Assembly: GCA_030446465.1 (NCBI GenBank)
Contig: JAUJNI010000001.1
Coordinates: 40,322 to 104,321, forward strand
From: Actinomycetota bacterium
GTDB taxonomy: Bacteria > Actinomycetota > CADDZG01 > WHSQ01
Length of the DNA stretch: 64,000 nt
Direction: 5' to 3'
The translations under genes were made by a program, and so were the position numbers. The notes below the pieces were generated by a model that was not told the origin of the DNA, searched no databases, and worked only from the letters and a program-made list of their open reading frames with translations. This document shows positions 1,776 through 21,966 of this stretch, piece by piece (positions within the stretch are counted from its first letter, which is position 1; every line of letters begins with the position of its first letter).

Positions 1776-3605
1776 CTATGGGTTGGGCCCCAGAACCCTC
1801 TCGTCACCTTGCCGCACGGTCGCACCCGTTTGATCGAGCCATTCGGACAACGGCACCGCATACTTCCGTGACGTCCCGAGCAGGTCCCGGATCCCGGCGA
1901 CCGATACGGGTCCGGATCGTTTGATGTGGTCCCGCACCGTTGCCCGGGCCTGGCGCGCCTGTTCGGCGGTCAGGTAGAAGTCGCCAACCTTCACGAGCTC
2001 GCGGCCGTCCGTAAGGGCACGCAGAAGGTCGGCGTCGGCGTCGAGGTCCTTGGCCAGCGGAGGGGTAAAGCCGGCCGACTCGATTTGCGCCAGGACGGCG
2101 CGCCGCACCCTCTGCTGGTCCTGGGACATGACGACCGAGTGAGACGACAGTCGAACGAGGGCTCGCTCCTGCACCACCTCGGGCATAACCTCCAAGAGCG
2201 CGTCGAACCCCTCGGGCGCCAGCTTCGTCGTTGCCCGAAGAGCCTCCCGGGGCATCCCCCGGTCGAGCGGCCGGTTCGCATGGTGACTGCTCAACGCCCC
2301 AAGAACCTGTGTACGGAGGACATCGAGATGCCCCTTGGACACGAGTAGGGGGCCGAGTGCGACGATCTCGTCGGATGGTTCCGTCGCACCCGAGCGGACG
2401 AGTGCGACGCGCGCCTCGACGGCCCCCTCCGCGTTGACGATGGCCGTCAGCGCCTCACTTGGCTCGGCATTCGCGAGCTGCCCGAGGAGCTCTAAACGCG
2501 CATTGTCTGAGCGATTCGTTGCCCGGGGCAAGGGGTCGAGAACCGCTCCACCTCCGAAGGTCAACACGCGGCCGGCGTCGCGTAGTACGAACTTGTCTCC
2601 TCTCGCGAGGGGCAGGGAATCCCTCAGATGAAGCTGGGCGAATCCGCTTTCGCCACCTTTGAGGCTGGCGCGCCCGTACAGCTTTATGCGCACGGGAGTC
2701 TCGGCGGACCCGACGTACAGAAGATGGGCGCCTTTCTCGGATAGCTCGTGCTGGGAACCCGTCGCCCACGCCGGCAGAACCCGTACTTGGGCGTCCACGC
2801 GCCTCGTGATCCTCCATGTGCCCGGGGTCACCACCGCGTCCCCCCGCTCGGCCCCCTGCCTCGACAATCCGACCAGGTTGAGCGCCACTCGATTGCCCGG
2901 CTCGATGAACGCAACCTCCTTCTTGTGGCTCTGAATCGATCGCACTCGAGCACGCCGCGCCTCGGGCGAGATCTCGATCTCCTGTCCTGCTCGAAGAGAG
3001 CCTCCAGCGAGCGTGCCCGTGACCACCGTTCCCGCCCCCGCAATGGTGAAGACGCGGTCGATCCACAGCCGCGGTCGTCCAAGGTCGGGCAGCAGAGGAG
3101 CGGACGCGACGACTCGGTCGATCGCCGCCACGAGGTCATCCATACCGTGGCCCGTTACAGGTGAGCAGGGAACGATCGGCGCATTCGCAAGGGAGGAGCG
3201 TGCGAGCTGCTCTTCCGTTTCGGCGGTGGCAAGCTCGAGGGTCTCGGCGTCGACCGTGTCTGACTTGGTAAGGGCCACTACGCCGGAGGTCACTCCCAGC
3301 ACCTCGAGCACCGCCAGATGCTCTGTGCTCTGGGGCATCCAGCCCTCGTTTGCAGCGACCACGAATAGGCAGATGGACACCCCTCCGGCGCCGGCGAGCA
3401 TGTTCTTGATGAATCGCTCGTGTCCCGGAACGTCGATAAGGCCGATCTCGCGCCCTGAGGGAAGTGGGAGCCACGCGAACCCAAGGTCGATGGTCAGGCC
3501 TCGTCGCTTCTCCTCGGCGAAACGGTCGGGGTCGATCCCCGTGAGTCGCTCGACGAGCGTCGATTTTCCGTGGTCGACGTGACCGGCGGTGCCGATTACG
3601 TGCAT
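1776..3605 (-). CDS. selB: Selenocysteine-specific translation elongation factor SelB
   Basis: SelB is the GTPase that brings Sec-tRNA to the ribosome at UGA codons marked by a SECIS hairpin. Starting at the ATG at 3605 gives 609 residues, usual for bacterial SelB. The G domain shows GHVDHGKST (residues 8-16), RGLTID, DVPGHERFIKN and TKSD, followed by the EF-Tu-like beta barrels and a C-terminal half of winged-helix repeats that in known SelB bind the SECIS RNA. An ATG exists 18 codons upstream (3659), but the extra residues do not resemble SelB and would overlap fdhD, so the inner start is preferred. It is divergent from fdhD with about 50 bases between them. Confidence 0.95.
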   Translation of the reverse strand: MHVIGTAGHVDHGKSTLVERLTGIDPDRFAEEKRRGLTIDLGFAWLPLPSGREIGLIDVPGHERFIKNMLAGAGGVSICLFVVAANEGWMPQSTEHLAVLEVLGVTSGVVALTKSDTVDAETLELATAETEEQLARSSLANAPIVPCSPVTGHGMDDLVAAIDRVVASAPLLPDLGRPRLWIDRVFTIAGAGTVVTGTLAGGSLRAGQEIEISPEARRARVRSIQSHKKEVAFIEPGNRVALNLVGLSRQGAERGDAVVTPGTWRITRRVDAQVRVLPAWATGSQHELSEKGAHLLYVGSAETPVRIKLYGRASLKGGESGFAQLHLRDSLPLARGDKFVLRDAGRVLTFGGGAVLDPLPRATNRSDNARLELLGQLANAEPSEALTAIVNAEGAVEARVALVRSGATEPSDEIVALGPLLVSKGHLDVLRTQVLGALSSHHANRPLDRGMPREALRATTKLAPEGFDALLEVMPEVVQERALVRLSSHSVVMSQDQQRVRRAVLAQIESAGFTPPLAKDLDADADLLRALTDGRELVKVGDFYLTAEQARQARATVRDHIKRSGPVSVAGIRDLLGTSRKYAVPLSEWLDQTGATVRQGDERVLGPNP

Positions 3606-3657
3606 CACCGCACGATACGGCGTGTGGCCCCAAAGTGGACCGTGATTTGATGGGAGC

Positions 3658-4557
3658 ATGAGGGCGGACCGGGCTCTAGGACCACTCGACGCGTCGGGGC
3701 AGCAGCGGGAGGAGAGGGGCGGAGTCGGCAGCGCGATAAAGGCGCGCGTTTACGTCGTAGACGGCGACACCAACCGAGAGCGCTTCGATCGCCTCGCGGC
3801 CGAAGAACCCCTCGAGATCAGGGTGCGATCGGCAGGGGAAGCAAGGACGGCAACCGTCACGATGCGGACGCCGGGCAACGACTTCGAGTTGGTCGCGGGC
3901 TGGTTGCACTCAGAGGGTGTCGCTAGAGGCCGCAAGGACATCGCCAGGATGGCGTACTGCATCGACCGAAGCCGTGGAGAGGAACAGCTCTACAACATCG
4001 TTAACGTCGATCTCGCGCCCGAGGTCGATGCCGACATCCGTTCCTTCGAGCGGAGCTTCTTTACTACGAGCGCGTGTGGTGTGTGCGGCAAGGCGGGGCT
4101 TGAGCAGCTCCAGACCCGCGGCTGCCTGCCTCTCACCGGCGGCCCCACAATAGATCCCGCGGTCATCTACTCGCTGCCGGACAAGCTGAAGGAGTCACAG
4201 CGCGTGTTCGAGGCCACCGGCGGTCTCCACGCGGCCGCGTTGTTCGACTCGAGCGGCGACCTGCTGGCGCTCCGTGAGGACGTCGGTCGCCACAATGCTC
4301 TCGACAAGCTCGTCGGCTGGGCCCTGTTGGGCGGCCGCCTGCCGCTAAAGGATCACCTCGTGATCGTCAGCGGTCGTGCGAGCTTCGAGCTGGTGCAGAA
4401 ATGCGTGATGGCGGGGGTCCCGGCCATGTGCGCCATCTCGGCCCCCAGTAGCCTGGCAGTCGACCTCGCCCGGCACTTCGGTGTGACGCTCATCGGCTTT
4501 CTCAGGGCCAGACGGTTCAACATCTACTCCTGCCCCCAACGGGTTATTGCGCCATAA
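3658..4557 (+). CDS. fdhD: Formate dehydrogenase accessory sulfurtransferase FdhD
   Basis: FdhD carries sulfur from a cysteine desulfurase to the molybdenum cofactor and is needed for active formate dehydrogenase, which is often a selenoprotein. The 299-residue product has the family CxxC motif at Cys140 and Cys143 (SACGVCGK), the GNDFELVAGWLHSEG segment near residue 65, and the DVGRHNALDK and GRASFELVQK motifs toward the C terminus. The first 25 or so residues are not family-like; no better start codon is seen, so ATG 3658 is used. No formate dehydrogenase subunit lies in the window, so the partner enzyme must be elsewhere. Confidence 0.93.
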   Translation: MRADRALGPLDASGQQREERGGVGSAIKARVYVVDGDTNRERFDRLAAEEPLEIRVRSAGEARTATVTMRTPGNDFELVAGWLHSEGVARGRKDIARMAYCIDRSRGEEQLYNIVNVDLAPEVDADIRSFERSFFTTSACGVCGKAGLEQLQTRGCLPLTGGPTIDPAVIYSLPDKLKESQRVFEATGGLHAAALFDSSGDLLALREDVGRHNALDKLVGWALLGGRLPLKDHLVIVSGRASFELVQKCVMAGVPAMCAISAPSSLAVDLARHFGVTLIGFLRARRFNIYSCPQRVIAP

Positions 4558-4743: not shown

Positions 4744-6138
4744 TCACGCTGTGGCCAGCGCGTTGGTGACCAGTGCCAGGAGTTGCGGGTCCTGTCCGGG
4801 TGGGACGCTGCGGAGGTCGAGCAGCAGGCGGTCGTCGGCGATGCGCCCGATGACCGGGGTCTCCGCATGCCTGAGGGCGCGGCCGAGCTCCGCGGCGCTC
4901 CTTTCGCCGTGGTCGAGCGCGATGGCCCACGAAGCCAGCTCCTCTCCCGGCAGTGATCCTCCACCCGTAACCGACGCCACCGGCTGAGCTTCTGCCTTGA
5001 GGCCCTTGTTCGCAGCGGACAGAGCCTCGGCAAGGTGCTTCGCTCGGGCCTCGAGCTCTTCGGTGGCAGCCAGAGCCATGCTCCATAGCGGAAGATCCGT
5101 GAGCCTGTCCTCCATGTGGGCCCTCAAGGTCTCTTCCAGCGCTGCAAGCGTCATCTTGTCGACTCTCACCGCGCGGAGAAGCGGGTGCCGGGCGATCTTT
5201 TCAACCAGGGGGCCACGTCCCAGGATGATGCCGGCTTGCGGGCCGCCGAGCAGCTTGTCCCCCGAGAAGGTCACGATGTCTGCGCCGTCCGAAAGGGCGA
5301 CGTCCACGAGCGGCTCCTCCCGAGCCCAACTGGCTCCGGCGGGGGCGGACATGAAGCCCGAGCCGACGTCGTGGATGAACGGTATGCCCGTGCTCCGAGC
5401 CAGCTCCCCAAGCTTTCTGGCGGGCACCGAGGCGGTGAAGCCGACCACGCGGTAATTGGAGGGGTGAACCTTCAATATCGCCGCAGTGGCGTCGGTCACT
5501 TTCGAGCGGTAGTCGGCAAGACGGGTCCTGTTCGTGGTCCCGACTTCTACGAGCCTGGACCCCGACAGGGCCATGACGTCCGGGATGCGAAACTCACCGC
5601 CGATCTCGACCAGCTCTCCTCGGCTGATCAGAACTTCCTTTTCTGCGCACAACGCGACCAGCGTCACAAGGACCGCCGCGGCGTTGTTGTTGGTGACCAG
5701 TGCGGCCTCCGCTCCGGTGAGGGCGGTTAGCAACTTTGCTGCGTGGTCGTAACGGCTGCTGCGCCGGCCCTCTTCGACGTCGTACTCGAGGTTCGAATAA
5801 GACCCAGCGATCTCGACTACGGCATCTAGCTGCCGCCTGCCCAGAGGGGACCTTCCCAAGTTGGTGTGGATCAATACACCTGTGGCATTGATCACGGGAC
5901 GCAGCAGCGTTTCACTTTCTTGATCGACGATCTTTTTAGTCGCGTCGACGATCTGATCGAACGAGGGCGCAGGCCGGCCCTGTCTAATCGACTGGCGGGC
6001 AAGGTCGATAGCTCGTCGTGCGGCGGGCCCTGCGCCGCGCTGGTCTGCCGACGCACCGAGTCCGCGTAGCACTCGGTCTACCGAGGGCAACGATCGCAAG
6101 CTTTGGTGTACTTCGTCTCGCGCGTGCTCAGGTGGCAT
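4744..6138 (-). CDS. selA: L-seryl-tRNA(Sec) selenium transferase SelA
   Basis: SelA is the PLP enzyme that turns Ser-tRNA(Sec) into Sec-tRNA(Sec) using selenophosphate. The 464-residue product is of normal length. It contains the N-terminal SLPSVDRVL helix region, INATGVLIHTNLGRSPL, VTNNNAAAVLV, and the PLP-binding lysine at residue 295 in SGDKLLGGPQAG, the same number as the E. coli lysine. Its start overlaps the end of the upstream response regulator by 11 bases, so the two are probably translated from one message. selD (selenophosphate synthetase) is not in the window. Confidence 0.96.
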   Translation of the reverse strand: MPPEHARDEVHQSLRSLPSVDRVLRGLGASADQRGAGPAARRAIDLARQSIRQGRPAPSFDQIVDATKKIVDQESETLLRPVINATGVLIHTNLGRSPLGRRQLDAVVEIAGSYSNLEYDVEEGRRSSRYDHAAKLLTALTGAEAALVTNNNAAAVLVTLVALCAEKEVLISRGELVEIGGEFRIPDVMALSGSRLVEVGTTNRTRLADYRSKVTDATAAILKVHPSNYRVVGFTASVPARKLGELARSTGIPFIHDVGSGFMSAPAGASWAREEPLVDVALSDGADIVTFSGDKLLGGPQAGIILGRGPLVEKIARHPLLRAVRVDKMTLAALEETLRAHMEDRLTDLPLWSMALAATEELEARAKHLAEALSAANKGLKAEAQPVASVTGGGSLPGEELASWAIALDHGERSAAELGRALRHAETPVIGRIADDRLLLDLRSVPPGQDPQLLALVTNALATA

Positions 6139-18498: not shown

Positions 18499-19161
18499 TC
18501 AGACGAGGACGTTGCGCTGATCGAGGTGCTGCTGGAGCTTGCGCTTGACGCGTTGGAGCGCGTTGTCGATGGACTTCACATGGTTGCCGAGAGTTCCAGC
18601 GATCTCTTCATAGGACTTGCCGTCCATGTACAAGGCCAGGACGTCTCCTTCGAGGCGGGTGAGGTTGTCGCACATCGAGGTCCTGAGGGCCTCGATCTCT
18701 TGGGCCGAGATCACCAGCTCGACCGGATCGGAGAGAACGATCGGAGTCATCAGCTGATCCATCACCGAGCCGGGATCATCGTCTCCGTACAGGGAGGCGT
18801 CCAGTGAGATCGAGCCATTCAGGACTTGGTGCTTGTTGCGATTTGCCGTCTTTATGGCGGTGAGGATCTGACGGGAGATGCAGAGCTCAGCAAAGGCACG
18901 GAACGGAGTCTTTTGGCTGGCATCGAAGTCCCGGATCGCCTTGAAGAGCCCGATCATGGCCTCCTGAATGACGTCTTCCTTCTCGGAACCCGCCAGGAAG
19001 TAAGAACGCGCCTTGCGGCGAGCGAACGCACGGTAGCGCTGCAAGAGGACCTCGATCGAGCGGTCGTCGCCCCACTGGGCGCGGCTTACGAGCTGTGAAT
19101 CTTCAAGCGTTTCCAGACTCGAGAGCTCGACCTCTAGGTCGTCAACCCAACTGACTGGCAT
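18499..19161 (-). CDS. RNA polymerase sigma factor, SigH (Spo0H)-like
   Basis: The 220-residue protein has sigma region 2 (ARRKARSYFLAGSEKEDVIQEAMIGLFKAIRDFD, about 50-85) followed by FRAFAELCISRQILTAIKTANRNKHQVLNGSISLD, the run that marks the Bacillus SigH group, and a region 4 helix-turn-helix at the C terminus (MDGKSYEEIAGTLGNHVKSIDNALQRVKRKL). It is longer than an ECF factor and lacks region 1.1. In Bacillus this class directs the post-exponential switch; in actinobacteria its role is unclear. Upstream lie two CTAGTC palindromes and then selC. Confidence 0.88.
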   Translation of the reverse strand: MPVSWVDDLEVELSSLETLEDSQLVSRAQWGDDRSIEVLLQRYRAFARRKARSYFLAGSEKEDVIQEAMIGLFKAIRDFDASQKTPFRAFAELCISRQILTAIKTANRNKHQVLNGSISLDASLYGDDDPGSVMDQLMTPIVLSDPVELVISAQEIEALRTSMCDNLTRLEGDVLALYMDGKSYEEIAGTLGNHVKSIDNALQRVKRKLQQHLDQRNVLV

Positions 19162-19411: not shown

Positions 19412-19502
19412 GGAGGCGAATGGGGGCTGGTGTCCCTCCCGGTCTTCAAAACCGGTGCGCCGAGGAGACTCGGTGGGCGGGTTCGATTCCCGTCCGCCTC
19501 CG
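19412..19502 (+). tRNA. selC: tRNA-Sec (anticodon TCA)
   Basis: A 91-nt selenocysteine tRNA folds by eye. The anticodon stem 19439-19443/19451-19455 holds loop CTTCAAA with anticodon TCA (19446-19448). The acceptor GGAGGCG (19412-19418) pairs with 19495-19501 and discriminator G19502 follows. The T arm has loop TTCGATT (19482-19488). Acceptor plus T stems stack to 13 bp, the Sec hallmark, either as 7+6 or as 8+5 with an A-C mismatch. The D arm is G5/CCCTC with a short loop, and a long variable arm (19460-19464/19469-19473, loop GAGA) is present. CCA is not encoded. It pairs functionally with selA and selB at 1.8-6.1 kb. Confidence 0.95.
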
Positions 19503-19690
19503 CTACAACGCTCCGGCGGACCTGAACACTCGACGGCAACCGCTGTTAGAGCGTTTCCGAATGTAGAACGCGCCTTTCAGGTGCTGAGCTCGGTCGCGGT
19601 GAGCGCTGATCTCGTTTCTTTGGGTGAGACTGTCCTCTAGGCGGACAGCCGTCGGGAAAGAAGGCACAGGCTCTTGTCCTCGCCGCGTCC

Positions 19691-21321: not shown

Positions 21322-21516
21322 GACTGGAGTCTCGCGTGTTTACGGCAACTGGTTCCCCTGAGAACAGTCTCGTTCGTGAGTTCGCTCCACCTGCGGTATG
21401 AAGACATGGTTCAGCAGCAGAGCCGCTCAGGTACGGCAGTCACCAACCTTTCCGAATCTCTAGACCGCCCGTTTGTGGTCGTCACCGACCCCGATGCCAT
21501 GAAAGGAGGGTCAAGG

Positions 21517-21966
21517 ATGGATGAGACGCCTCGAGAGGCTGCACAAGAGCGCGTTGGCCGGCCCCCCGCCGATGAGCGCCTAAAACGGCCCCTTCTCCTT
21601 TACGAGGACGACTGACCGTTCTGTAGCGCGGCGGCGAGGTTCGTCGCCAAGGTCGATAAGAAAGAGCGATTGTCGATGCTGCCCTACGACGATCCAGAGG
21701 CGGCACGCTGGGTGGTTTTCCTGACGGAGGGAGAGGTCGAGGGCTCGTGGCGCCTGGTCGAGCCGGACGGACGTCGCCTGACCAAGGGGGAGGCGGGCAT
21801 CGCCTTGCTCGAGCACATCGATGCGACCAGGTGGCTGGGGCGCCTTCTTGGGATGCTGCACCTCACCCGGGTGGTTGGCGCGATTGATTGGGTTATCTCC
21901 AAGCTGAGACCGACCCTCAGCCGGTTCGTCGACAAGGGCCCGCCGTTTAGACGGCCTCCGGTATAG
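21517..21966 (+). CDS. Probable selenoprotein: DCC/DUF393 thioredoxin-like protein with Sec at residue 33
   Basis: Read through the TGA at 21613-21615, this frame gives 149 residues. The ATG has an ideal AAAGGAGG site (21502-21509, 7-base spacing). Just before the TGA the protein reads LLLYEDD and just after it PFCSAAARFVAKVD, i.e. the DCC family motif D-C-x-F-C with the first cysteine replaced by selenocysteine (Sec33, Cys36). Homology to DUF393 continues on both sides (LPYDDPEA, SWRLVEPDGRRLTKGEAGIALLE). Downstream of the TGA is a SECIS-like hairpin. The window also encodes selA, selB and selC. DCC proteins are thought to be thiol-disulfide oxidoreductases; a UxxC centre should be more reactive. 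A broken gene or base error is the alternative, judged unlikely. Confidence 0.88.
21613..21648 (+). promoter_or_regulatory. UGA-Sec codon and candidate bacterial SECIS hairpin
   Basis: After the UGA (21613-21615) an 8-bp stem, GGCGGCGA (21630-21637) with UCGUCGCC (21641-21648) including one G-U pair, closes a GGU loop (21638-21640). The loop begins 22 nt after the UGA and has G in its first two positions, which meets the known bSECIS pattern (spacing about 16-37 nt, small loop with a leading G). SelB would bind here. The fold was found by eye. Confidence 0.8.

Follow-up and report, generated by a model that had tools for sequence, protein, structure and literature searches.

A predicted thioredoxin-like DCC selenoprotein and the recurrence of TGA at its redox motif in Actinomycetota

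The DCC1-like thiol-disulfide oxidoreductases (PF04134) are deposited in databases as DUF393 or YuxK proteins, and their namesake is presumably DCC1 of Arabidopsis. This plant protein has been termed a functional thioredoxin limiting reactive oxygen species, and the part of the source available to us mentions no selenocysteine (Sec) (PMC6603150). Other thioredoxin-like proteins (thioredoxin, glutaredoxin, DsbA-like and peroxiredoxin-like) do have Sec-containing forms with a UxxC or UxxU redox motif, as far as the accessible part of a review tells (PMC13188914); these belong to Pfam families other than PF04134. Here we describe a gene at positions 21517-21966 of a 64,000-nucleotide stretch of an Actinomycetota bacterium (contig JAUJNI010000001.1; hereafter the window). 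Judging from its sequence, it very probably encodes a small thioredoxin-like DCC oxidoreductase in which a TGA at the first catalytic cysteine (Cys) codon is read as Sec. The predicted protein is like the known PF04134 members in its profile match, in the position of its DxxCxxC-type motif and in its length. It differs from them in that the first or both Cys codons of its family are TGA, whereas the Pfam and full-length database entries are Cys forms.

The sole TGA within the gene is codon 33, which is followed by 116 sense codons and then TAG (translation MDETP...LLLYEDDUPFC...RRPPV). The first-pass annotation had placed this TGA exactly on the first Cys of the DCC motif, and the alignment bears this out: YEDDUPFC of the window faces YEDGCPFC of P0002, a continuous protein of 149 residues that shares 72% identity with the window protein, residues 33 and 36 both being Cys. 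With the TGA read as Cys, the protein scores 37.1 bits against PF04134, whose gathering score is 27.8; when genomes are scanned in six frames, the locus reaches 27.2 bits, slightly below this cut-off. It had also been claimed that frame and codon use persist past the TGA. This was confirmed by a coding log-odds of 21.5 in the gene frame, compared with at most 5.7 in each of the five other frames; codon use past the TGA thus fits a gene in one frame only, with a GC content at the third codon position of 0.80. The frame stays open upstream as far as ATG 21262, and the start at 21517 is favoured because of its ribosome-binding site, already noticed in the first reading, and of the N-terminus of P0002. 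No promoter or terminator was found by a scan for these signals. Among 10 places in the window where a coding frame is interrupted by TGA, only 21613 was judged Sec-like, by eye. The structure model is confident and shows the order beta strand, motif, helix, with residue 33 directly preceding helix 34-46. Comparison of this model with a fold library, as a test of the thioredoxin-like fold, gave weak matches only, and the three matches of a PDB sequence search (E 0.03 to 0.41) are regarded as chance.

When 396 genomes of the phylum were searched with the PF04134 profile, 94 had a match. An in-frame stop inside the match was found in 14 of the 94 (the window genome, 12 Rubrobacteraceae and genome G303), and this stop was TGA every time, never TAA or TAG. 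A search of 395 genomes from the class of G303 (115 with a match) added genomes G668 and G614; only the best 10 candidates were scored in most of these genomes, so that Sec forms may be undercounted. In total, TGA stands at the motif codon in 16 genomes of five families, five with UxxC and 11 with UxxU, i.e. TGA at both catalytic codons. In Rubrobacteraceae (39 genomes searched), all 12 DCC matches carry the motif TGA, as U-GF-C (2 of 12) or U-[GH]F-U (10 of 12), and no Cys form was matched. The motif is U-GL-U in G303, U-GF-C in G614 and U-RF-C in G668, whose protein is 42% identical to that of the window. In the UxxU loci (L047-L056 and L091, 2002-2013), the two TGAs lie nine bases apart with one hairpin downstream. 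These double-TGA forms and the recurrence in separate branches go beyond what the first-pass annotation had noticed. Stops away from the motif were not taken as Sec. Among 14 stop-bearing rows in the class of G303, 3 have the stop at the motif (G668, G614 and G303); in the other 11 it precedes the domain or falls closer to the C-terminus (8 of the 11 read from fetched DNA). The TAG or TAA codons of L014, L018, L019 and L031 are located upstream of the motif and the TGA of L017 at the gene end; they are not Sec positions. No Sec form was detected in the class of G090 (27 genomes, 16 with a match). In L047, a TAG and an additional TGA were seen in frame shortly ahead of the domain, before position 1540.

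A pseudogene or a sequencing error, in which a Cys codon was turned into TGA or misread as such, was considered. TGA is one base away from TGC and TGT, and the window lineage is isolated: apart from the window itself, no near orthologue was found in its family (16 genomes, i.e. no match in the 15 others) or its class (24 genomes, no match in the 23 others). However, a read error is unlikely because TGA recurs at the motif codon in 15 other genomes, the interrupting stops in the 396-genome search were of one kind, and the coding signal runs on past the TGA. Selection in the relatives also argues against a pseudogene. Downstream of the motif, the 12 Rubrobacteraceae loci have a ratio of nonsynonymous to synonymous polymorphism (pN/pS) of 0.46; for the 14 codons that precede the motif, the value is 0.44. 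In the DCC genes of Rubrobacteraceae, the codons before and after the TGA are both under purifying selection. These genes do not decay; decay in close relatives would have counted against the first reading. We therefore consider a damaged or misread gene highly unlikely. The Rubrobacteraceae proteins end with a conserved Cys-containing tail followed by a terminal TGA, TAA or TAG. This tail, PYC-x(2-3)-P-x-EC, is conserved in the forms L045-L056 and absent from the window protein; its two extra Cys could act together with the motif.

The databases present the locus differently. A search with an alignment as query returned 546 proteins at E 1e-6 or better, from which the best 120 were classified together with P0010. 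Among those with at least 45% identity, 60 of 64 begin after the motif (one of them, P0003, is the window gene's own piece) and four are full-length, all CxxC; below 45% identity, 47 of 57 are CxxC, 8 begin after the motif and 2 were not readable at both positions. For a Rubrobacter protein, 93 of the best 120 of 145 relatives begin after the motif and 27 are CxxC. At the level of the protein entries, these starts just past the motif look as if gene callers had met a stop that breaks the frame. Rubrobacter marinus, whose genome is of single-contig scale, carries the family under such a shortened annotation (P0012), and the database entry for the G668 protein (P0185) is a truncated hypothetical protein assigned to an Acidimicrobiia bacterium. 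Scans of further genome contigs and of viral sequences gave no relatives of the window protein. The first-pass annotation had predicted that standard pipelines would end the gene at 32 residues or call only a C-terminal piece from 21670; such a piece is indeed deposited (P0003, 96 amino acids), but it starts at ATG 21676. The TGA might accordingly be a true stop, leaving a 32-residue leader open reading frame (ORF) and, apart from it, a C-terminal protein that starts at ATG 21676. The deposition of 60 of the 64 close relatives as C-terminal pieces and the availability of a start codon are in favour of this. However, the N-terminal part that the C-terminal piece would lack includes, in the structure model, the first strand as well as the redox motif, and P0002, with Cys, is a single unbroken protein. 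Moreover, selection acts on both sides of the TGA in relatives, against separate genes, and TAA or TAG was never found in place of TGA at the motif. Two separate genes are thus extremely unlikely.

Bacterial Sec insertion sequence (bSECIS) elements have, according to the part of PMC13188914 available to us, a loop of 3-9 nt with a G in the first two loop positions, a stem of 4-16 bp, a spacing of 16-37 nt and an energy of at most -7.5 kcal/mol. The hairpin that the first-pass annotation had seen after the TGA is present (GGCGGCGA-GGU-UCGUCGCC) and fits this published model, with 8 pairs, the loop GGU 22 nt past the TGA and -14.1 kcal/mol over 21613-21652. Taken by itself, however, the free energy does not stand out (z between -0.3 and -1.2 in four cuts). 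An equally long stem occurs in 4.3% of synonymous recodings of the window gene and, across 13 ORFs of the window, follows 235 of the 5813 codon positions. As stand-alone proof, the window hairpin was rejected (z about -1.2). G668 has a hairpin at the same place, in which, with the pairing read by eye, A-U replaces one G-C pair of the window. For the 12 Rubrobacteraceae loci, the score for hairpin pairing and covariation exceeds 500 of 500 shuffles, and three sequences have C-G instead of G-C at one pair; of five measures, two do not exceed the shuffles. In the synonymous-recoding test, the mean z was -1.95 for 14 Sec loci vs. 0.03 for 52 Cys loci (P = 4e-7, a value that overstates independence, as 12 of the 14 Sec loci are from one family). 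No hairpin signal was obtained for G303 in this test (z -0.02), nor for the Rubrobacteraceae loci in an uninterrupted-stem test (P 0.07 to 0.78).

The window also encodes selA, selB and tRNA-Sec (Table 1), as first reported, and all score over the cut-off. The selD gene of the same genome lies outside the window (L093, 5092-6012 (+), G000:C4:510091-511011) and has an in-frame TGA in SHGGGUACKL. From this sequence, it likely encodes the Sec form of SelD, which is listed in the selenoprotein table of PMC13188914, in the part of it available to us. We surveyed selA in 80 of the 94 genomes with a PF04134 match (14 with Sec-DCC, 66 with Cys-DCC). It was over the cut-off in 11 of the 14 Sec-DCC genomes and in 33 of the 66 Cys-DCC genomes. 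Of the other three Sec-DCC genomes, G326 has a fragment, and G289 and G393 (75% and 60% complete, respectively) gave no match. In Rubrobacteraceae, selB was over the cut-off in 29 of 39 genomes, including 9 of the 12 with Sec-DCC. Among 35 genomes (three with Sec-DCC), tRNA-Sec was over the cut-off in the window genome and G335, and not in G289. Within the stretches fetched from G668 and G614, neither sel genes (tblastn) nor tRNA-Sec were found; G127, of the same genus as G614, has selA. Sequence alone leaves room for a UGA read as another amino acid, by near-cognate suppression or a changed code. However, the position is the catalytic Cys in every Cys-form relative read; indeed, both motif positions are Cys or TGA in each of the 73 DCC rows read, a count that covers the window and duplicates, in agreement with the Cys homologues expected at residue 33. 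In addition, the window genome has the full set of tRNA-Sec, selA, selB and selD, and its selD has TGA at a type of Sec position known for SelD. Readthrough with an amino acid other than Sec is therefore extremely improbable.

Table 1. Features of the predicted selenoprotein gene and of the Sec machinery in the window
Feature	Position	Strand	Basis
Predicted DCC-family selenoprotein gene, 149 residues including Sec33	21517..21966	+	frame, PF04134 match, Cys relative, coding signal
Ribosome-binding site AAAGGAGG	21502..21509	+	7 nt upstream of ATG 21517; read from sequence
In-frame TGA at first Cys of CxxC, predicted Sec33	21613..21615	+	alignment with relatives
TGT, Cys36, predicted resolving residue	21622..21624	+	frame translation
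SECIS-like hairpin, 8 pairs, apical loop GGU 22 nt past TGA	21630..21648	+	folding; published criteria
tRNA-Sec	19412..19503	+	
selB	1776..3659	-	TIGR00475, 329 bits, cut-off 242
selA	4744..6138	-	TIGR00474, 520 bits, cut-off 268

On a tree of 81 rows and 130 columns, P0002, a Cys form, is the sister of the window protein (support 100/100). The Sec state needs seven changes, and a single clade of all 16 Sec rows is rejected (approximately unbiased test, p-AU 4e-5). Gains and losses of Sec are not distinguishable on this tree, on which G303 is a long branch; an exchange between Cys and Sec that recurs in the DCC family is nevertheless likely. Taking these data together, we consider it probable that the DCC proteins form a selenoprotein family of Actinomycetota not described before, with repeated Cys/Sec exchange and UxxC or UxxU motifs in five families, and that the UxxU branch works as a diselenide oxidoreductase, one hairpin serving to decode both of its UGAs, which are nine bases apart. 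In the window gene, the hairpin would recruit SelB with Sec-tRNA-Sec to the UGA at 21613. Sec33, modelled just ahead of the first helix of a thioredoxin-like fold, might then attack a substrate disulfide or peroxide as a selenolate; Cys36 would resolve the intermediate to a selenenylsulfide, to be re-reduced by a cellular thiol system. The UxxU proteins (Rubrobacteraceae and one further lineage) would instead use a diselenide couple, the single hairpin being at a usable spacing from both UGAs.

The first-pass annotation had suggested that the family might be undescribed, and our survey is consistent with this. A May 2026 review lists 119 entries in its Table 1, and DCC/PF04134 is not among them as far as the source was accessible (PMC13188914); neither DCC nor DUF393 was found in the main text of PMC12013277, PMC9312934, PMC2398784 and PMC1088965. 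We found no paper linking selenoprotein or selenocysteine with DUF393, DCC or YuxK in a literature search whose coverage leaves out most subscription papers and preprints. None of four proteins tested scored over the cut-off of any NCBIfam model (June 2026). A DCC selenoprotein family is thus likely missing from the published lists checked. For Rubrobacter xylanophilus, the accessible part of one source tabulates the number 5, which we take as its selenoprotein count (PMC1794560), and that of another reports a tRNA-Sec (PMC5330540). If confirmed, the DCC proteins would add one more family to the 119 prokaryotic selenoprotein families and subfamilies tabulated in 2026. A small protein that occurs naturally in CxxC, UxxC and UxxU forms is suited to testing the benefit of selenium to a redox enzyme, and its UxxU forms to testing whether one SECIS serves two neighbouring UGAs. 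The case further illustrates at which places annotation pipelines truncate real genes.

Finally, two neighbours of the Sec machinery were observed in the window. The fdhD gene (3658-4557, +) directly adjoins selB, and a sigma factor gene (18499-19161, -), whose product scores above the NCBIfam cut-off for one sporulation SigH model, adjoins tRNA-Sec.
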